64,000 nucleotides of DNA, from assembly GCF_008831545.1 (NCBI RefSeq), contig NZ_CP044523.1, forward strand, positions 1,612,001 through 1,676,000, read 5' to 3'. The DNA is from Halorussus halophilus. Its GTDB lineage: Archaea > Halobacteriota > Halobacteria > Halobacteriales > Haladaptataceae. The translations under genes and the position numbers were made by a program. Below are positions 39,364-46,607 of this stretch, one piece after another (position 1 is the stretch's first letter; each line of letters starts with the position of its first letter). Under the pieces are notes generated by a model. It saw nothing but the letters and a program-made list of their open reading frames with translations. It ran no database searches and was not told the DNA's origin.

Positions 39364-40062
39364 ATGGCATTACAGCGGGCGAAATTTCGCGGGGAGGACT
39401 CCCCCGACCGGTTCCGAGAGGTCCTACACCGTCTCAAGCGAGACGGCTGTAACCTCCTCGTGACGGGTGAAGTATCCCAGAGCGTGACCGCACGGGCCAC
39501 TCGGACGCTTCTCGGCGCGGCCAACGTGGACCGGAAGCGGGTCCTCACGCTCGCGGACGGCGACCAATCCGTCCACGACCGACTCCCAAAGGGTGTCGCT
39601 CCGGACGCGTCGAGCGTGTGGGTCATCGGCCAGCAGGCAGACCACCGAGCGGTCCCGTCTCCCGTCGATGAACCGGCAGACGGCGACGAACCGACGCCCG
39701 ACGAATATCGAACTCATCTCGCGGGCCTCCGCGAAGAAATCCTCTCGGCTATCGAGTACTTCGAGAAGGATGGACTCGACCCCGCCGAACTTCGACTGTC
39801 TGTCGATTCGCTCGACTACTTGGGACACGACCACGACGAGGCGAGTCTCGCGGAGTTCGTTCGGAGCGTTTCCGAGGAAGTGCGCGACGTGCGCGGGATG
39901 GCCCACTACCACCTCCGCCACCCGGACGACTCGGAGTTAGTCGAACGGCTGACGCCGGTAGTCGAGGCGCGCATCGAACTCCGGAAGCGCGAGGGCCTGC
40001 CGGCAGAGCAACGATGGCACGTCCCGGAGTACGGACAGGCGACCGAGTGGGTACAGCTATGA
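39364..40062 (+). CDS. Conserved haloarchaeal protein (DUF7504-like) next to CHAT gene
   Basis: A 232-residue protein. The opening FREVLHRLKRDGCNLLVTG followed by VTARATRTLLGAANVDRKRV is a haloarchaeal family I believe is DUF7504. The C-terminal half is helical (REEILSAIEYFEKDGLDPAE, YLGHDHDEASLAEFVRSV). It resembles a degenerate P-loop or RecA-like fold without an intact Walker motif, which is only an impression. It ends 7 bases before the first CHAT gene, so the two are co-transcribed. Confidence 0.7.
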   Translation: MALQRAKFRGEDSPDRFREVLHRLKRDGCNLLVTGEVSQSVTARATRTLLGAANVDRKRVLTLADGDQSVHDRLPKGVAPDASSVWVIGQQADHRAVPSPVDEPADGDEPTPDEYRTHLAGLREEILSAIEYFEKDGLDPAELRLSVDSLDYLGHDHDEASLAEFVRSVSEEVRDVRGMAHYHLRHPDDSELVERLTPVVEARIELRKREGLPAEQRWHVPEYGQATEWVQL

Positions 40063-40069
40063 ACTGACC

Positions 40070-42187
40070 ATGGAACCTGAGTTCGCGCCACACCCCGACC
40101 GAACCGGCCTACAGATAGCCGACCCCATCGAGAACGCCCGCTTCGCGCTGTTCACGCCCGACGCCGTCGAACCGTCACAGACGGCGACCGAGGAGTTCTA
40201 CTTCCCAGTCGATTCCGCGGTGAGCGTTCGGACCCCGGAGATAGAGATTCCGAAGTTGGCGAACGTCTTCGTCCGCACGCGGGACGGCGACCTCGTGGCC
40301 GACAACGCCGACCACTTCGACCGGTCGTTCGAGTCGGGGTCGTACGTGTTGGAACTGACCACTGCACCGATGAAGTTGTACCTCGCCGTAGAGAGCGGGT
40401 TCGACCTCCGACACGCTGAGACTGCGGTCACTATCGCCTTCGACGCCGAGACCGAGGTTCGAATCGGCGCGCGGTCGTTCCACGACAAGCCAGCGGCGAC
40501 TATCACCACGACACCGGACCCGGAAGGAGCGATGAAAGCCATCTCCTATCTCGGGTCCGCGCTGAAGACGACGAGTCCCGAACGGAGTTTCCCGACACTT
40601 CGCGGCCATCCACCGCTGATAGAAGTCGGTGAGGAGTTTTCGGTCCCCGACGGATTAGAACGCCCCGAGACGGGCGTCCGAATCGAGGTTCCGGCGGCGT
40701 ACGAGTACGTCTATCCGGCGAGTTCGCTTGCGTACTATCTCGGTGCGGAGGTGGTTCCGGGAGAAGAACCACGACTACTCGCCGGTGATGACTTCACGTA
40801 CCTGCTCGACGGACCGCTCGGATACGAGCAGACGATTGGCCGCGTCCTCAAGCAGACGTTCTTCTTCGACTGTCTCACGCGGACCGAGGGCTACTACGAA
40901 GTCGAGTTGCACGAGCGACACGCGGTCGAATCGCTCGTTGACCTCGACTTCGCGGCACTCTACGACGTTCCGCTCGCCGAGCGACTCGAAGCGTACCTCT
41001 CGGTCCCGTTCGAGACCATCGAAGAACACGTTCCGGACTGGAACCTGACGACGGACGTGGTCCCGACCGCAGAGAACGCCGAAGTGCTTCCGTTCGTCGC
41101 GTCGGACCTCGCGCTCGTTCGGTGTCCGTCCGGCCTGACCGCGGGCGAAGTGTCGCCGACGCCGGAACCCATAGACGAGTTCTTCCGGTCCGCCGAGGAC
41201 GAGTCCTCCCGGTCGCCAGACGACGAGGAGTTCACCCGGAGCGTCGCCGAAGGGAGCGAGACCGCCACGCCATCGGAAGACGTCTTCAACCCGAACCCCG
41301 CCGAGACGGTCGAACACGCGTGGGTCGGCGACGGCATCCCGATAGGTGCGAACAAGACGAGCGTCGAGTCCTATCGGCGACGCGTCGAGCGCACGGTGCC
41401 GGAGAAGTCGAACATCGAGATTCACGTCGTCTGCAACGACGAGCGCATGAAAGCCGAAGGTATCGTCGAGGAGTTCTACGGCATGCGGGAACTGCTCAAG
41501 TTCGACGTGTGCATCCACTACGACCTGACGACGGCAGCACTCGCGGATTTGCTGGCAACGGAAGCGGACTTCCTGCACTACATTGGCCACGCAGAAGCGG
41601 CCGGACTCCGCTGTCCGGACGGCCACCTCGACGTGCGAACTGTCGAGGACGTGAACGTCAAGGCGTTCCTGCTGAACGCCTGTAGCTCCTACGAGCAGGG
41701 CCAGGCGTTAGTCGAAGCCGGGAGTTACGGCGGCGTCGTGACGCTCTCGGAAGTCGCCAACAGCGTTGCGACCGAGACTGGCCAGACGCTCGGACGACTG
41801 TTGAACTGTGGGTTCTCGCTCAGGTCCGCCTTGTCGATTGTGAAAGACGACGTTGCGGCGGCGTATCAGTACGTGGCGGTGGGCGACGGCGGATTGACAC
41901 TGTGTCAGAGTGAGAGTGGAACTCCTCTATACGCGGAACTGACGAGGTTGAGTGCAGAACGTTTCAGAATGACGCTCAAATCGTATCCTACCCGGAAGTT
42001 TCGGCTAGGGGCGACAAATTCTGTAAACGTCTCGGATTCTGCTAGTTGCTATCTTAGCTCTGGTGTTCTCGACACATTCAAATTAACCCGAGAGGACCTC
42101 AAATCGTTCTTGGGTCTCGAACTGATACCGGTCGAGACCGAGGAGGGTCTCTACTGGAGTGACCAGTTACCTGTATCAGCGATCTGA
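40070..42187 (+). CDS. CHAT-domain (caspase-like) protein, copy 1
   Basis: A 705-residue protein. The N-terminal two thirds hold beta-rich sequence (YFPVDSAVSV, TAPMKLYLAVESG, KTTSPERSFPTLRGHPP) with no domain I can name, then a disordered acidic stretch at about 365-430. The C-terminal region is a CHAT caspase-like domain: FLHYIGHAEA with His503 and His507, and FLLNACSSYEQGQALVEAG with Cys538. The His/Cys pair expected for a cysteine protease is intact. It is in an operon with the DUF7504-like gene, and a 44-codon gene converges on its end with a 1-base gap. The paralogue is at 44393. Its substrate is unknown; a cell-death, defence or stress role is a hypothesis. Confidence 0.8.
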   Translation: MEPEFAPHPDRTGLQIADPIENARFALFTPDAVEPSQTATEEFYFPVDSAVSVRTPEIEIPKLANVFVRTRDGDLVADNADHFDRSFESGSYVLELTTAPMKLYLAVESGFDLRHAETAVTIAFDAETEVRIGARSFHDKPAATITTTPDPEGAMKAISYLGSALKTTSPERSFPTLRGHPPLIEVGEEFSVPDGLERPETGVRIEVPAAYEYVYPASSLAYYLGAEVVPGEEPRLLAGDDFTYLLDGPLGYEQTIGRVLKQTFFFDCLTRTEGYYEVELHERHAVESLVDLDFAALYDVPLAERLEAYLSVPFETIEEHVPDWNLTTDVVPTAENAEVLPFVASDLALVRCPSGLTAGEVSPTPEPIDEFFRSAEDESSRSPDDEEFTRSVAEGSETATPSEDVFNPNPAETVEHAWVGDGIPIGANKTSVESYRRRVERTVPEKSNIEIHVVCNDERMKAEGIVEEFYGMRELLKFDVCIHYDLTTAALADLLATEADFLHYIGHAEAAGLRCPDGHLDVRTVEDVNVKAFLLNACSSYEQGQALVEAGSYGGVVTLSEVANSVATETGQTLGRLLNCGFSLRSALSIVKDDVAAAYQYVAVGDGGLTLCQSESGTPLYAELTRLSAERFRMTLKSYPTRKFRLGATNSVNVSDSASCYLSSGVLDTFKLTREDLKSFLGLELIPVETEEGLYWSDQLPVSAI

Positions 42188-42188
42188 T

Positions 42189-42323
42189 TTATGGGCCAGC
42201 ATGTGCCGATGCCCCGTTCGCCGCCACGTTCCCTGCTTCCATCAACAGCAAGCAGGCCGAGAACAGGACGCCCATCGCTTTCGGATTCTCACGCAGGTAC
42301 TCCGCAATCATGTTCTGGTTCAT
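42189..42323 (-). CDS. 44-residue hydrophobic micropeptide downstream of CHAT copy 1 (DUF7503-like)
   Basis: Read directly on the minus strand: ATG at 42323, TAA ending at 42189, with one base between its stop and the CHAT stop. The peptide has a polar start containing YLRENPKAMGVLF, a hydrophobic core (LFSACLLLMEAGNVA) and a short His-containing end HAGP. A TATA-like segment (attaaatt on the minus strand, about 42353-42360) lies about 30 bases upstream, indicating a leaderless transcript. It is clearly paralogous to the peptide at 46473, which has the same length and motif, so it is a real gene. Confidence 0.8.
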   Translation of the reverse strand: MNQNMIAEYLRENPKAMGVLFSACLLLMEAGNVAANGASAHAGP

Positions 42324-42482
42324 GGTAACGATAGACAGTACACGGTCGTGACAATTTAATCTATCTAATTCGTTTCAATATAAACATTATTAATGTAGCG
42401 GCGTGAAAGCAATTCAAGTATTGCGAGAATAACATCTTTTTGCAGACAAGGATTTTTGTCCAGGGAGTGTGAGCGACCCGAT

Positions 42483-42788
42483 ATGGGAAGCTTCGACCTC
42501 GACCTTCAGACGGTCGAGAAGGAGATAGATCGGGACGAGGAGGGCACTGAGGCGACCAACCGGCGCATTGCGCTCGGCGTCCTCGATGGAACGACCGACC
42601 ACCGAGAGTGGTTCGACATCGTGGAGAGCGGCGACGTACTGGTCCTCGCGATTCAGGGCGACCTCCCAGAACTCGCGGGCGAACTCGCACCGATGGTCAA
42701 AGAACGCGGCGGCAACGTCGTCCACTTCCGAGACTTCCTCATCGTCTCGCCAGCGGACGTGAGCATCGACACGGAGCGACTGAAGTAG
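42483..42788 (+). CDS. Conserved haloarchaeal protein (DUF5779-like)
   Basis: A 101-residue protein (MGSFDLDLQTVEKEI, RRIALGVLDGTTDHREWFD, VLVLAIQGDLPELAGELAP). I believe this is DUF5779, widespread in haloarchaea and of unknown function. The ATG at 42483 is chosen since homology begins there. It is divergent from the micropeptide gene. Confidence 0.78.
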   Translation: MGSFDLDLQTVEKEIDRDEEGTEATNRRIALGVLDGTTDHREWFDIVESGDVLVLAIQGDLPELAGELAPMVKERGGNVVHFRDFLIVSPADVSIDTERLK

Positions 42789-42847
42789 TCCCGAGGTTAT
42801 CGTACAGGCCGGGACGAGTTACTCGTGGCTGCGTCCGGTCAGCACTC

Positions 42848-43525
42848 CTACCTGAAGGTCACATAGTGACCGTCTGGGTCGCGCACGCGCACGTCATCGC
42901 CTCGCTCTTCGACAGCGCACGCTTGCTCGGCCACAGCCTCGGCGGCCGCTGTGGGGTCCTCGGTCTCGAATCCGATATCGACGTGGAGTCCGCCACGAGC
43001 GTCGGCGATTCCCAGTTGGGGTTCCCAGAGTTCGAGCGCTACCGGCCCGTCGAGGCGCACACGCGGCCGGTCGTCCCCGCGGTCCACGACCTCGAACCCG
43101 AGCGTGCAGTAGAACGACTCCGCACGCGCGAGGTCCTCGACTTCGAGGGCGATTTCGAACACCGACGTGATGTCCCCCTCGCCCGCGCCACAACCACCGA
43201 TTTCGACGCAGTTGCCGTCCGGGTCGTAGAAGTACAGCGAGCGCGACCCGCCGAAGTCGAACTCGGTCAACTCGAAGTCCTCGTCGAGTCGGTCGTACCA
43301 CGCGTCGTACTTCGACGGCGGCGTCGCGAGCGCGTAGTGGGTGTGGACGCCACCGCGCGGCACCGACGCCGGTCGTCTGAGCAGTAGGTCTGTCTCTCCG
43401 GCCGCGAGAACTACCTCGTCGTCGGTTTCGCCGACGACTGGCAGGTCGAGAGTCGTGGTGTAGAACTCTCGCGCGCGGTCGAGATACTTCGCTTCGAGCG
43501 CCAGCCAACGCAACCCCGAGAGCAT
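42848..43525 (-). CDS. VOC family protein, two vicinal-oxygen-chelate modules
   Basis: A 225-residue protein with two glyoxalase/dioxygenase-type modules: residues about 3-110 (LALEAKYLDRAREFYTTTLD, SLYFYDPDGNCVEIGG) and 118-225 (FEIALEVEDLARAESFYCTL, VRVRDPDGHYVTF). This matches catechol-dioxygenase-like or glyoxalase-like proteins with a paired fold. The start at 43525 is where similarity begins. Substrate unknown. Confidence 0.82.
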   Translation of the reverse strand: MLSGLRWLALEAKYLDRAREFYTTTLDLPVVGETDDEVVLAAGETDLLLRRPASVPRGGVHTHYALATPPSKYDAWYDRLDEDFELTEFDFGGSRSLYFYDPDGNCVEIGGCGAGEGDITSVFEIALEVEDLARAESFYCTLGFEVVDRGDDRPRVRLDGPVALELWEPQLGIADARGGLHVDIGFETEDPTAAAEAVAEQACAVEERGDDVRVRDPDGHYVTFR

Positions 43526-43604
43526 CGTGTCTACTTCGTGGGCCGTCCGCTTAAATTCTCGCGGGCCACTGGGGATTTTGTAGGCTCGGCCCGTAGTAAC
43601 TGCT

Positions 43605-44282
43605 ATGCCACTAAAACAGTCCCAACCGGCGACGGAGTTCGAGGAGATAGACCGCTGGGACCACGGCGTCGGTTGGCTAGCCCACCCCGACGAGACGATG
43701 CAACGAGCGAGCCACGCGCTCGAAGTAGACGGCAAGGTGTGGGTCGTAGACCCAGTAGACGCGCCGGAACTCGACGACCTGCTGGCGGAGTTCGGGACAG
43801 TCGAAGGTGTCGTCGTCCTGCTCAACCGCCACTTCCGCGACGCCGACGAAATCGCTCGTCGCCACGACGTCCCGGTGTACGTCCCCTCGTGGTTCGACCG
43901 CGTGCAGGAGATGCGCGCGCCGCTGAAACGCTTCGACGGAACGCTGCCCGAGACCGACTATCGCGTCGTCAAGGTCTTCGACTCGTTCGGGTGGGAAGAG
44001 GCCGCACTGTACGACGACGAGTCTGGAACGCTCGTGGTCCCCGAAGCCATCGGCAGTGCCCCGTACTTCACCACCGAAAGCGAACGCTTAGGCGTCCATC
44101 CGATGCTCAGACCGATACCACCGAAGGCACTGCGCGGCCTCCGACCGGAGCGCATCGTGGTCGGCCACGGTGCCGGCGTGGCTGATGACGCCGCATCGGT
44201 ACTCACGGCGACGCTTCGCGGTGCGCGGCGACGAACACCGAAACTATTCGCTCGAAACATTCGGCTGTTCTTAACTGATTGA
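43605..44282 (+). CDS. Degenerate metallo-beta-lactamase-like protein
   Basis: A 225-residue protein whose pattern (ALEVDGKVWVVDPVDAPELDDLL, VVVLLNRHFRDADEIARRHD, PVYVPSW, VVGHGAG) follows the MBL fold. The HxHxDH motif is reduced to NRHFRDAD, so canonical zinc binding is doubtful. It is transcribed from its own promoter, divergently from the VOC gene, and lies just before the second CHAT gene. Function unknown. Confidence 0.65.
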   Translation: MPLKQSQPATEFEEIDRWDHGVGWLAHPDETMQRASHALEVDGKVWVVDPVDAPELDDLLAEFGTVEGVVVLLNRHFRDADEIARRHDVPVYVPSWFDRVQEMRAPLKRFDGTLPETDYRVVKVFDSFGWEEAALYDDESGTLVVPEAIGSAPYFTTESERLGVHPMLRPIPPKALRGLRPERIVVGHGAGVADDAASVLTATLRGARRRTPKLFARNIRLFLTD

Positions 44283-44342
44283 TACACAGTCGAGTCAATT
44301 AATTAGCGATAAATTTTTATTTTTACTATCTTAACTATGGGT

Positions 44343-44396
44343 ATGCGAGTTGCTCGACGAACAAACTCTGATAGCTGTTCGGGGGGTCTCCCGTGA
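44343..44396 (+). CDS. Possible 17-codon upstream ORF coupled to CHAT copy 2
   Basis: ATG at 44343 opens a frame (MRVARRTNSDSCSGGLP) whose TGA overlaps the GTG start of CHAT copy 2 (GTGA), the same arrangement seen before ilvB. A TATA-rich segment just upstream (44308-44330) would put the ATG near the 5' end. Translation is unproven. Confidence 0.3.
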   Translation: MRVARRTNSDSCSGGLP

Positions 44397-46462
44397 CGCT
44401 GTCGTTCCGTTCGACGGCCGAACCGACAGGTATCGAAATTCGCGATCACGTCGAGCAGCGGGTGTACGAACTCTCGACAGCGAGCGACGTCTCGCCGAGT
44501 TCCGTCTCCACCGAGCGGTTCCTGTTTCCCGTAGACGACGCCGTCTCGATTCGGACGGACGCGATTTCGCTCCCCCAAATCGTGGCGACGTATCTTCGCG
44601 ACAGTGACGGCACCATGCGCGCGGAAATCCTGGATGGGACCCAAGAAGTGTTCCCCAACGGCAAGTACTACGTCGAACTGTGCGCCCCGATGAAACTCTA
44701 TCTCGCCGTCGAAGGTCCCATCTCGGTGTCGGCGACTGCTGAGCGATTCCGATTCGAGTTCGATTCCGAAGCCGAAGTGCTAATCGGCGCACGCTCTCAC
44801 CACGAGCGACCGGCCGCAACCGTCACGACCACGAGGGACCCGACGGACGTGATGACTGCTATCTCGGCGTTCTCGTCGGCACTGAAGACGACGAGTCCCG
44901 AGCGCAGTTTCCCGACGCTCCGGGGGCATCCGCCGCAGATAGAACTCGGCGAGGAACTCCACGTTCCCGACGAGTTGGAGATACCCGAGACGGACGTTCG
45001 AATCGAAGTTCCGCCGACGCTGAGTGCACTCTACGTCGTCGCTCCGCTCGCGTTCTACCTCGGGGCCGAACTCGCACCGGGACAGAGACCGCGAATCGTC
45101 ACCGACAGCGGGTTCACGTACGACCTCGAAGGCCCACTCGGGTACGAGCAGACGGTAGAACGCGTCCTCAAACAGACGTTCTTCTTCGACTGTCTCGTCC
45201 GGACGGAGGGTCTCTACGAGGTCGACCTCCACGAACGGCGAGCGGTCGAACCGCTCGTGGACTTGGACTTCGAAGCGTTGTACGACTCGACCATCGGCGA
45301 GCAGTTGGAGGGGTACCTCTCCGTCGAGTTCGAAACTATCGAGGAGTACCTTCCGAAGTGGAAGTTGACGACGCACGTCGAACCGACGAGCGACAACGTC
45401 GAGTCGCTTCCGTTCGTGGTCAACGACCTCGCAGTCGTTCGGACGCCGAAAGCACACGAGCAATCCCCACAGGTGCAGGCACAACCTGCAACGACTGGCG
45501 AGTTCGTTCGGGACGGGGACTTCACCCGTAGTGCAGCGGAGTCGAGCGGCGAGATGCCACTCGTTCACCCTGAACGTACCGACTCGGTCGAACAGGCGTG
45601 GCTCGGTGACCACGCGCCCAAGGACGCGAGCAAGGTGACCGCCAAGGCGTTCCGAAATCGCATTTCGAGAGACGTTTCCGAGGGCACGACAGAAATCACG
45701 GTCGTCTGTAACGATACCGAGATGGGCGAAGAGAGCGACCTCGCCACCGAAGTGTACGGTTCTCGGGCGGAACTCCCGTTCGAGGTAACGGTCCATCGTA
45801 ATCTTTCGACCGACGAGCTTCGAGAAGTCTTGCAATCGGAGACTGCGTTCCTGCACTACATCGGTCACATCGGCGAAGACGGTTTCGAATGTGCCGACGG
45901 CACGCTCGACGCGACGACGGTGGAGTCGGTCGGAGTCGAGGCGTTCCTGCTCAACGCGTGTAGCTCCTACGAACAAGGGCTTGCTCTCGTCGATGCAGGG
46001 AGTGTCGGTGGCGTCGTGACGCTGTCAGACGTCATCAACAGCGGCGCGGTTCGGGTTGGCAAGACGATGATTCGCTTGTTGAACCGTGGATTTCCGCTCC
46101 GTGCCGCATTGACGATTGCACGGGGCCGAAGCATCGTCGGTGACCAGTACATAGTAGTGGGCGACGGGAACGTAGACGTAGTGCAGACGGAGAGCGGTCT
46201 CGCCGCACTATACGAAATCGAGCGCGACGGAGAGGAGTTCTTAGTAACTCATCGAAGCTATACGCCGAGTACTGCGGGATTAGGTGGCTTCTTCTCACCA
46301 GAATTCGTGGAAAACAGGACGTGCTACCTGAACTCGGGAGTTCACGGTCCGTTTTCGCTCACGCGCGACGAATTGAGTATGATGCTCTTACTAGAGAATC
46401 TGCCGCTCGTAATCGATGGTCAGTTCACTTGGAGCGAGTCGCTTGACTTAGGTTCGCTGTAG
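44393..46462 (+). CDS. CHAT-domain (caspase-like) protein, copy 2
   Basis: A 689-residue paralogue of the protein at 40070, alignable from the first residues (TGIEIRDHVEQRVYEL against TGLQIADPIENARFAL). The CHAT motifs are conserved: FLHYIGHIGEDG (His488, His492) and FLLNACSSYEQGLALVDAG (Cys523), with the same spacing as in copy 1. Between about 345 and 400 the acidic linker differs in sequence and length. It starts at a GTG behind an AT-rich promoter (gataaatttttatttttact) and has no DUF7504-like gene directly upstream. A paralogous micropeptide gene converges on its end. Likely a cysteine protease, by family. Confidence 0.8.
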   Translation: MTLSFRSTAEPTGIEIRDHVEQRVYELSTASDVSPSSVSTERFLFPVDDAVSIRTDAISLPQIVATYLRDSDGTMRAEILDGTQEVFPNGKYYVELCAPMKLYLAVEGPISVSATAERFRFEFDSEAEVLIGARSHHERPAATVTTTRDPTDVMTAISAFSSALKTTSPERSFPTLRGHPPQIELGEELHVPDELEIPETDVRIEVPPTLSALYVVAPLAFYLGAELAPGQRPRIVTDSGFTYDLEGPLGYEQTVERVLKQTFFFDCLVRTEGLYEVDLHERRAVEPLVDLDFEALYDSTIGEQLEGYLSVEFETIEEYLPKWKLTTHVEPTSDNVESLPFVVNDLAVVRTPKAHEQSPQVQAQPATTGEFVRDGDFTRSAAESSGEMPLVHPERTDSVEQAWLGDHAPKDASKVTAKAFRNRISRDVSEGTTEITVVCNDTEMGEESDLATEVYGSRAELPFEVTVHRNLSTDELREVLQSETAFLHYIGHIGEDGFECADGTLDATTVESVGVEAFLLNACSSYEQGLALVDAGSVGGVVTLSDVINSGAVRVGKTMIRLLNRGFPLRAALTIARGRSIVGDQYIVVGDGNVDVVQTESGLAALYEIERDGEEFLVTHRSYTPSTAGLGGFFSPEFVENRTCYLNSGVHGPFSLTRDELSMMLLLENLPLVIDGQFTWSESLDLGSL

Positions 46463-46472
46463 CGCTAGACTT

Positions 46473-46607
46473 TCACGGTCCGTGAGTGACCAGAGCGTGA
46501 GCCGCAGTCGTGTTCCCTGCTTGTGTCAGTAGCAACAGCATCGTAAATAGCACGCCCATCATTCGCGGGTTCTCTCGGAGATACGTCGTGAGGTTGCCTT
46601 CTTGCAT
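46473..46607 (-). CDS. 44-residue hydrophobic micropeptide downstream of CHAT copy 2 (DUF7503-like)
   Basis: Read directly on the minus strand: ATG at 46607, TGA ending at 46473, 10 bases from the CHAT copy 2 stop. The peptide shares YLRENP, MGVLF, LLL and AGN with the peptide at 42189 and ends THGP. It has one hydrophobic stretch (MMGVLFTMLLLLTQAG) able to span or insert in a membrane. A TATA box (tttatatttg on the minus strand, 46632-46641) lies 25-34 bases before the ATG. I believe the family is DUF7503. Confidence 0.82.
   Translation of the reverse strand: MQEGNLTTYLRENPRMMGVLFTMLLLLTQAGNTTAAHALVTHGP

Follow-up and report, generated by a model that had tools for sequence, protein, structure and literature searches.

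The window, a 64,000-nucleotide stretch of the Halorussus halophilus genome (NZ_CP044523.1), contains two modules in which the gene of a CHAT-type protein lies tail to tail with the gene of a 44-residue micropeptide. We propose that the CHAT protein and the micropeptide form a dedicated protease-micropeptide pair in which the peptide is a ligand of the CHAT protein, most likely its substrate, and we assign this reading a probability of about 45%. Since gain and loss affect both genes at once, the pair is probably a protease-peptide switch that has not been described so far. The constant pairing and orientation of the genes, their gain and loss as units, the fold of the first CHAT protein (CHAT1), the invariant catalytic dyad wherever a peptide is present, and the Gly-Pro (GP) end in unrelated peptide classes are established.

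The first module begins with a DUF7504 protein (39364..40062, + strand, 232 aa; PF24336, 155.3 bits vs. a cut-off of 27), encoded 7 bases 5′ of CHAT1, a clan CD protease-like protein (40070..42187, + strand, 705 aa) assigned by its AlphaFold2 model and structural matches. One base separates CHAT1 from micropeptide 1 (42189..42323, − strand, 44 aa). The second module comprises CHAT2 (44393..46462, + strand, 689 aa) and, after a gap of 10 bases, micropeptide 2 (46473..46607, − strand, 44 aa). The coordinates, strands and 44-codon lengths of these four open reading frames agree exactly with those in an earlier note on this DNA, as do both gaps and the description of CHAT1 and CHAT2 as paralogues (49.6% identity by BLASTP). 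The two micropeptides are 50% identical, share the YLRENP, MGVLF, LLL and AGN motifs named in that note, and belong to the Pfam family DUF7503 (PF24335; 64.3 bits and E 7.6e-18 for micropeptide 1, 69 bits and E 2.6e-19 for micropeptide 2, curated cut-off 27 bits). Micropeptide 1 has a hydrophobic segment, an [N]P[K] motif and a C-terminal AGP, and micropeptide 2 ends in HGP. The G+C content of both modules was unremarkable.

A scan of CHAT1 and CHAT2 with the Pfam CHAT profile PF12770 gave no match; the profile matched eight of the 13 CHAT paralogues encoded in the window genome, with a best E of 6.1e-7. These matches, together with the predicted fold of CHAT1, place the window proteins in the CHAT family. 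The AlphaFold2 model of CHAT1, built from a 74-sequence alignment, was confident (pLDDT 89.8, pTM 0.90). Its protease region matched gingipain R with a structural Z of 20, SAVED-CHAT with 17.5, separase with 16, the Craspase TPR-CHAT with 12-15, and caspases with 11. Comparison of the model with SAVED-CHAT, separase, Craspase and gingipain R bears out the CHAT-type protease fold proposed earlier; judged by the model, CHAT1 is a CHAT-type protein of clan CD with an intact dyad and predicted protease activity. Residues 1 to ~138-147 of the model form mainly beta strands, and the rest of residues 1-327 is a mixture of short strands and helices. The CHAT1 models contained no array of helical repeats of the TPR type. 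Structure comparison of the N-terminal domain (mainly residues 1-138) gave no clear known fold, and the best matches, the periplasmic domain of YidC and galactose-mutarotase-like sandwiches, were at the noise level (Z ~ 7).

The predicted catalytic residues, His507 (41588..41590, + strand) and Cys538 (41681..41683, + strand) of CHAT1 and His492 (45866..45868, + strand) and Cys523 (45959..45961, + strand) of CHAT2, were confirmed in their positions, in both proteins within FLHYIGH...FLLNACSSY. The dyad was kept in all 184 CHAT homologues that bear a peptide and lost in four of the 33 that do not (P 4.6e-4, in a biased sample where one tandem pair accounts for two of the four). CHAT relatives without the His/Cys pair, which the earlier note would have counted against its proposal, do exist (4/217), but all four lack a recognised convergent peptide. 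They are the two tandem CHATs of locus L186 and those of L156 and L166, where His and/or Cys is gone, and are possible pseudo-proteases.

DUF7503 was present in 95 of 116 haloarchaeal genomes, mostly in single copy, and the CHAT family in 52 of 59, so the role of the pair is probably common and important. Both were found in 49 of the 59 genomes, CHAT only in three, neither in seven, and the peptide only in none (P 3.5e-7, with the genomes taken as independent though they are related). Outside the window genome, 30/30 and 81/82 DUF7503 genes (111/112) were tail to tail with a CHAT gene of the same family, and none of the 112 was without a CHAT gene nearby. This count and the gain and loss of whole units uphold the claim that selection keeps the two genes together. 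The exception (L110:2600-4130) is a DUF7503 gene ~1.4 kb from the CHAT gene and on the same strand, with a tail lacking GP; a response-regulator/PAS-like gene, read from the sequence, appears to separate the two.

Counted from the CHAT side, a peptide accompanied 184 of 217 proteins overall, a proportion biased upward by the many loci chosen via the peptide, and 74 of 81 at loci that belong to named genomes and were selected for the similarity of their CHAT. A peptide was present in about half of the 40 loci retrieved solely via their CHAT, most of them belonging to a second clade of the family, and in the window genome eight of the 13 CHATs were paired with a DUF7503-type peptide while five had no recognised one; some CHATs therefore work without a peptide. 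The distance between the genes ranged from overlap to ~250 bases, and the stop codons overlapped in many loci. The CHAT family is strongly expanded in a few genomes, with 13 members in the window genome, 16 matches in G043 and 10 in G023; many genomes had two or three matches. Outside the class, distant homologues occurred in four genomes of one family of the same phylum (L187-L190), whose CHAT genes showed no convergent peptide of the DUF7503 or GP type; the homologue in L188 appears to lack the dyad.

The suggestion that the pair was duplicated at this site did not hold: CHAT1 and CHAT2 are not sisters in the CHAT tree, their loci have separate histories, and tree and synteny together rule out a tandem duplication. 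A locus from another family (L192) has the gene order of the window, namely ilvB-like, leuA-like, ferritin-like, DUF5779, VOC, MBL, CHAT2, peptide and the next gene (names other than DUF5779 assigned by reading the sequences), and lacks the DUF7504-CHAT1-peptide 1 unit. In Halorussus salinisoli (L194), the CHAT1 unit is accompanied by CHAT2 in the window order, as far as the stretch reaches. In H. litoreus (L195), the CHAT1 unit is present, CHAT2 and its peptide are absent, and the flanking genes are adjacent. On a Haladaptatus plasmid (L196), the DUF7504-CHAT1-peptide unit occurs without any of the tested flanking genes. From this comparison it follows that the modules come and go as units. 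CHAT2 and peptide 2 constitute an old syntenic locus, DUF7504-CHAT1-peptide 1 is a separate unit, and such unit-wise gain and loss is better evidence of a functional link than the apparent duplication. Relatives of CHAT1 occurred on 25 plasmids, all genera in the tally being haloarchaeal. A search for repeats around the CHAT1 unit gave no clear flanking duplication.

The GP end of most peptides and a hydrophilic convergent class in another CHAT clade are new here. DUF7503 peptides are mostly 41-48 aa long and have in common [H/N]-P-[R/K], then a hydrophobic stretch and a variable tail. GP was the C-terminus in 104 of 113 DUF7503 peptides and was missing from 11 of all 184 peptide tails; very few of ~650 neighbouring ORFs outside these peptide families end in this way. 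The DUF7503 core is under purifying selection (pN/pS ~ 0.19), and the tail is less constrained (0.46). All four Gly and all four Pro codons are in use at the terminal GP, which argues that this end is selected as protein. Contrasts in CHAT residues that co-vary with GP loss were modest and confounded by phylogeny. At one locus (L117:3974-4263), two identical DUF7503 peptides stand in tandem opposite a single CHAT gene.

The hydrophilic class was seen downstream of second-clade CHATs at 13 loci (L147, L149, L150, L153-L155, L167-L171, L173, L174) as a convergent, mostly hydrophilic ORF, usually of 38-47 codons. These ORFs end in [V/I]S[T/S]YxGP (e.g. VSTYGGP), usually after K-R or K-G, with an (A/S)-K-R motif preceding VSTYGGP. 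Judging by ORF conservation, they would represent a second peptide class and are candidate coding genes. A few additional convergent peptide forms also finish in GP. Since the hydrophilic class replaces the membrane type, the position and the GP end are conserved, and not the membrane segment; what stays fixed while the peptide class changes points to one short, testable recognition element. The earlier idea of a membrane effector is thereby weakened as a general role, because the hydrophilic class serves the other CHAT clade with the same GP end and position, whereas the peptide as a substrate or inhibitor is plausible. More tentatively, one may envisage a Halobacteria-wide regulatory system, a previously undescribed two-gene convergent switch, in which a clan CD protease recognises the C-terminal Gly-Pro of micropeptides that are interchangeable and may be of the membrane or the soluble type.

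Asp457 of CHAT1 (41438..41440, + strand) is a candidate acidic S1 residue. It comes after strand 449-455 and before a helix, ~50 residues N-terminal of the catalytic His, and 182 of the 184 CHATs that bear a peptide have Asp or Glu at the equivalent position. In RgpB and MALT1, the residues that bind the P1 Arg (Asp163 and Asp365, respectively) both lie in helix alpha-1. The similar position of Asp457, assigned by place in the sequence and secondary structure rather than by residue-level superposition, predicts Arg/Lys specificity. Arg or Lys at P1 is also suggested by F-x-R motifs in the linker, which were present in 184 of 217 homologues compared with a mean of 29 in shuffles. The disordered linker of CHAT1 (~residues 355-415; 41132..41314, + strand), with low pLDDT in mid-stretch, contains FFR (371-373) and FTR (388-390). 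Such motifs are candidate autoprocessing sites; autoprocessing of RgpB occurs at Arg. In 107 of 113 DUF7503 peptides, the residue after [H/N]P is basic, and only 10 have a further Arg/Lys downstream of it. The candidate cut site is this conserved basic residue in DUF7503, which precedes the hydrophobic stretch, and K-R ahead of VSTYGGP in the hydrophilic class. A few peptides lack a basic residue there, and in some of the VSTYGGP class KG or another pair replaces KR.

The specificity, cleavage site, activation, location and cell effect of the pair we infer as follows. The CHAT protein would be a cytosolic cysteine protease of clan CD with a predicted specificity for Arg or Lys at P1. It would stay inactive until its N-terminal domain receives a signal, which DUF7504 may relay in some modules. 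In DUF7503, the cut would fall after the conserved Arg/Lys of [H/N]-P-[R/K], N-terminal of the membrane segment, and in the hydrophilic class after (A/S)-K-R, N-terminal of VSTYGGP. The C-terminal piece released in this way would carry the Gly-Pro end and is the presumed recognised or acting product. We favour the substrate model because of the pairing, the unit-wise loss, the retention of the dyad, the GP end, the S1 candidate, the F-x-R motifs and the basic residue in the peptides. The model is weakened by peptides without a basic residue at the site, tails without GP and CHATs without a peptide. Moreover, were the membrane type inserted N-in, the GP tail would lie outside, away from the cytosolic protease, which counts against the model.

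It is also conceivable, though unlikely in our view, that the peptide inhibits the CHAT protein or guards it in the manner of an antitoxin. Its GP tail would then sit in or near the active-site groove as a product-like or pseudosubstrate inhibitor, and the protease would be freed when the peptide is lost or removed. The invariant C-terminus in unrelated classes would fit recognition of a free C-terminus, the strict pairing and loss as a unit agree with such a role, and an inhibitory loop whose Arg occupies S1 restrains gingipain R (PMC4357240). Nevertheless, DUF7503 as an inhibitor would have no obvious need of its membrane segment and conserved basic residue, and some dyad-intact CHATs have no recognised peptide. 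The convergent genes, probably with separate promoters, also differ from typical toxin-antitoxin pairs, which are co-transcribed.

We find it rather improbable that DUF7503 is a propeptide, its hydrophobic segment acting as a signal peptide (end xAA) and the GP tail being released outside as a signal or bacteriocin-like product that the CHAT protein processes, senses or answers. The signal-peptide-like core is indeed followed by a fast-varying tail (pN/pS 0.46 vs. 0.19) that ends in GP, and a small, adjacent gene for the precursor is a usual feature of peptide signalling (PMC10075063). However, the hydrophilic class has no export signal, CHAT is no known receptor type, and most genomes have a single copy.

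Less probable still is that the convergent layout serves mainly RNA-level control, in which overlapping 3′ transcript ends would regulate each other and the peptide would be secondary. The tail-to-tail arrangement of 111/112 genes and the many overlapping stop codons are compatible with it, as is a promoter-like region of the peptide gene itself, AT-rich at ~28-40 bases 5′ of the DUF7503 start. AT-rich sequence at such a distance is what a TATA box in archaea would look like, and the peptide gene is therefore probably transcribed from a promoter of its own. RNA control is at odds with the selection of the peptide at the protein level, the freely varying GP codons and the variable gaps. A conserved convergent gene pair is nonetheless unusual and invites tests of antisense control. 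That the genes are chance neighbours or hitchhikers with no functional link is extremely improbable, because the peptide core is under purifying selection and the pairing, gained and lost as units, recurs across genera of Halobacteria with a co-occurrence that chance would hardly produce.

The substrate model can be compared with several known systems. In bacterial gasdermin pairs, the gene of a caspase-like protease stands beside that of the membrane-active partner it cuts. Our pair likewise has a caspase-like protease gene adjoining a small-partner gene, but the partner, mostly of 40-48 residues, is far too short to adopt a gasdermin fold and is hydrophilic in some cases. SAVED-CHAT (8tl0) was the closest CHAT to CHAT1 by Foldseek (E 3.4e-7); comparison by sequence profile also found it, weakly, and no other CHAT. 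The structural match spans CHAT1 residues 443-613 only, and no SAVED domain was recognised. It is common for the substrate of a CHAT protease to be encoded in the vicinity of the enzyme, e.g. Csx30 for Craspase (PMC9729208). Craspase (type III-E gRAMP, TPR-CHAT/Csx29, Csx30) resembles our pair in the partner encoded nearby, the catalytic fold (Z 12-15) and the His/Cys dyad. It differs in its TPR N-terminus, where CHAT1 has mainly beta strands, and in its partner, which here is ~44 aa long and encoded convergently; no Cas7-11/gRAMP was recognised among the immediate neighbour genes read. Gingipain R (family C25) and separase, the best structural matches of the protease region (Z 20 and 16), are Arg-specific with an acidic S1 residue (PMC4357240, PMC4626109), but they share 12-14% identity with CHAT1 and have other N-terminal domains, and the specificity here is predicted. 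RRNPP quorum sensing (PMC10075063) also combines a small precursor gene adjoining the gene of an intracellular partner with a variable C-terminal part; in our pair, the partner is protease-like without a recognised TPR, and the hydrophilic class lacks an export signal.

The literature searched, with partial coverage, did not name DUF7503 or DUF7504 and thus gave no function or link to CHAT; that on CHAT in haloarchaea and Haloferax volcanii, also partially covered, contained nothing on a CHAT-peptide pair. Both parts being uncharacterised, the pair offers a ready test of caspase-like CHAT proteases in archaea. A role in defence or cell death, which the earlier note had brought up, is so far unsupported: PADLOC 2.0.0 profiles gave no match among the 13 CHAT paralogues, the viral contigs searched contained no relative, and the CHAT neighbours include several housekeeping genes. 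DUF7504 is an accessory part of the module, encoded directly 5′ of CHAT in 27 of 136 loci. It is weakly KaiC-like (E 0.08), and the window genome encodes 17 copies above the cut-off.
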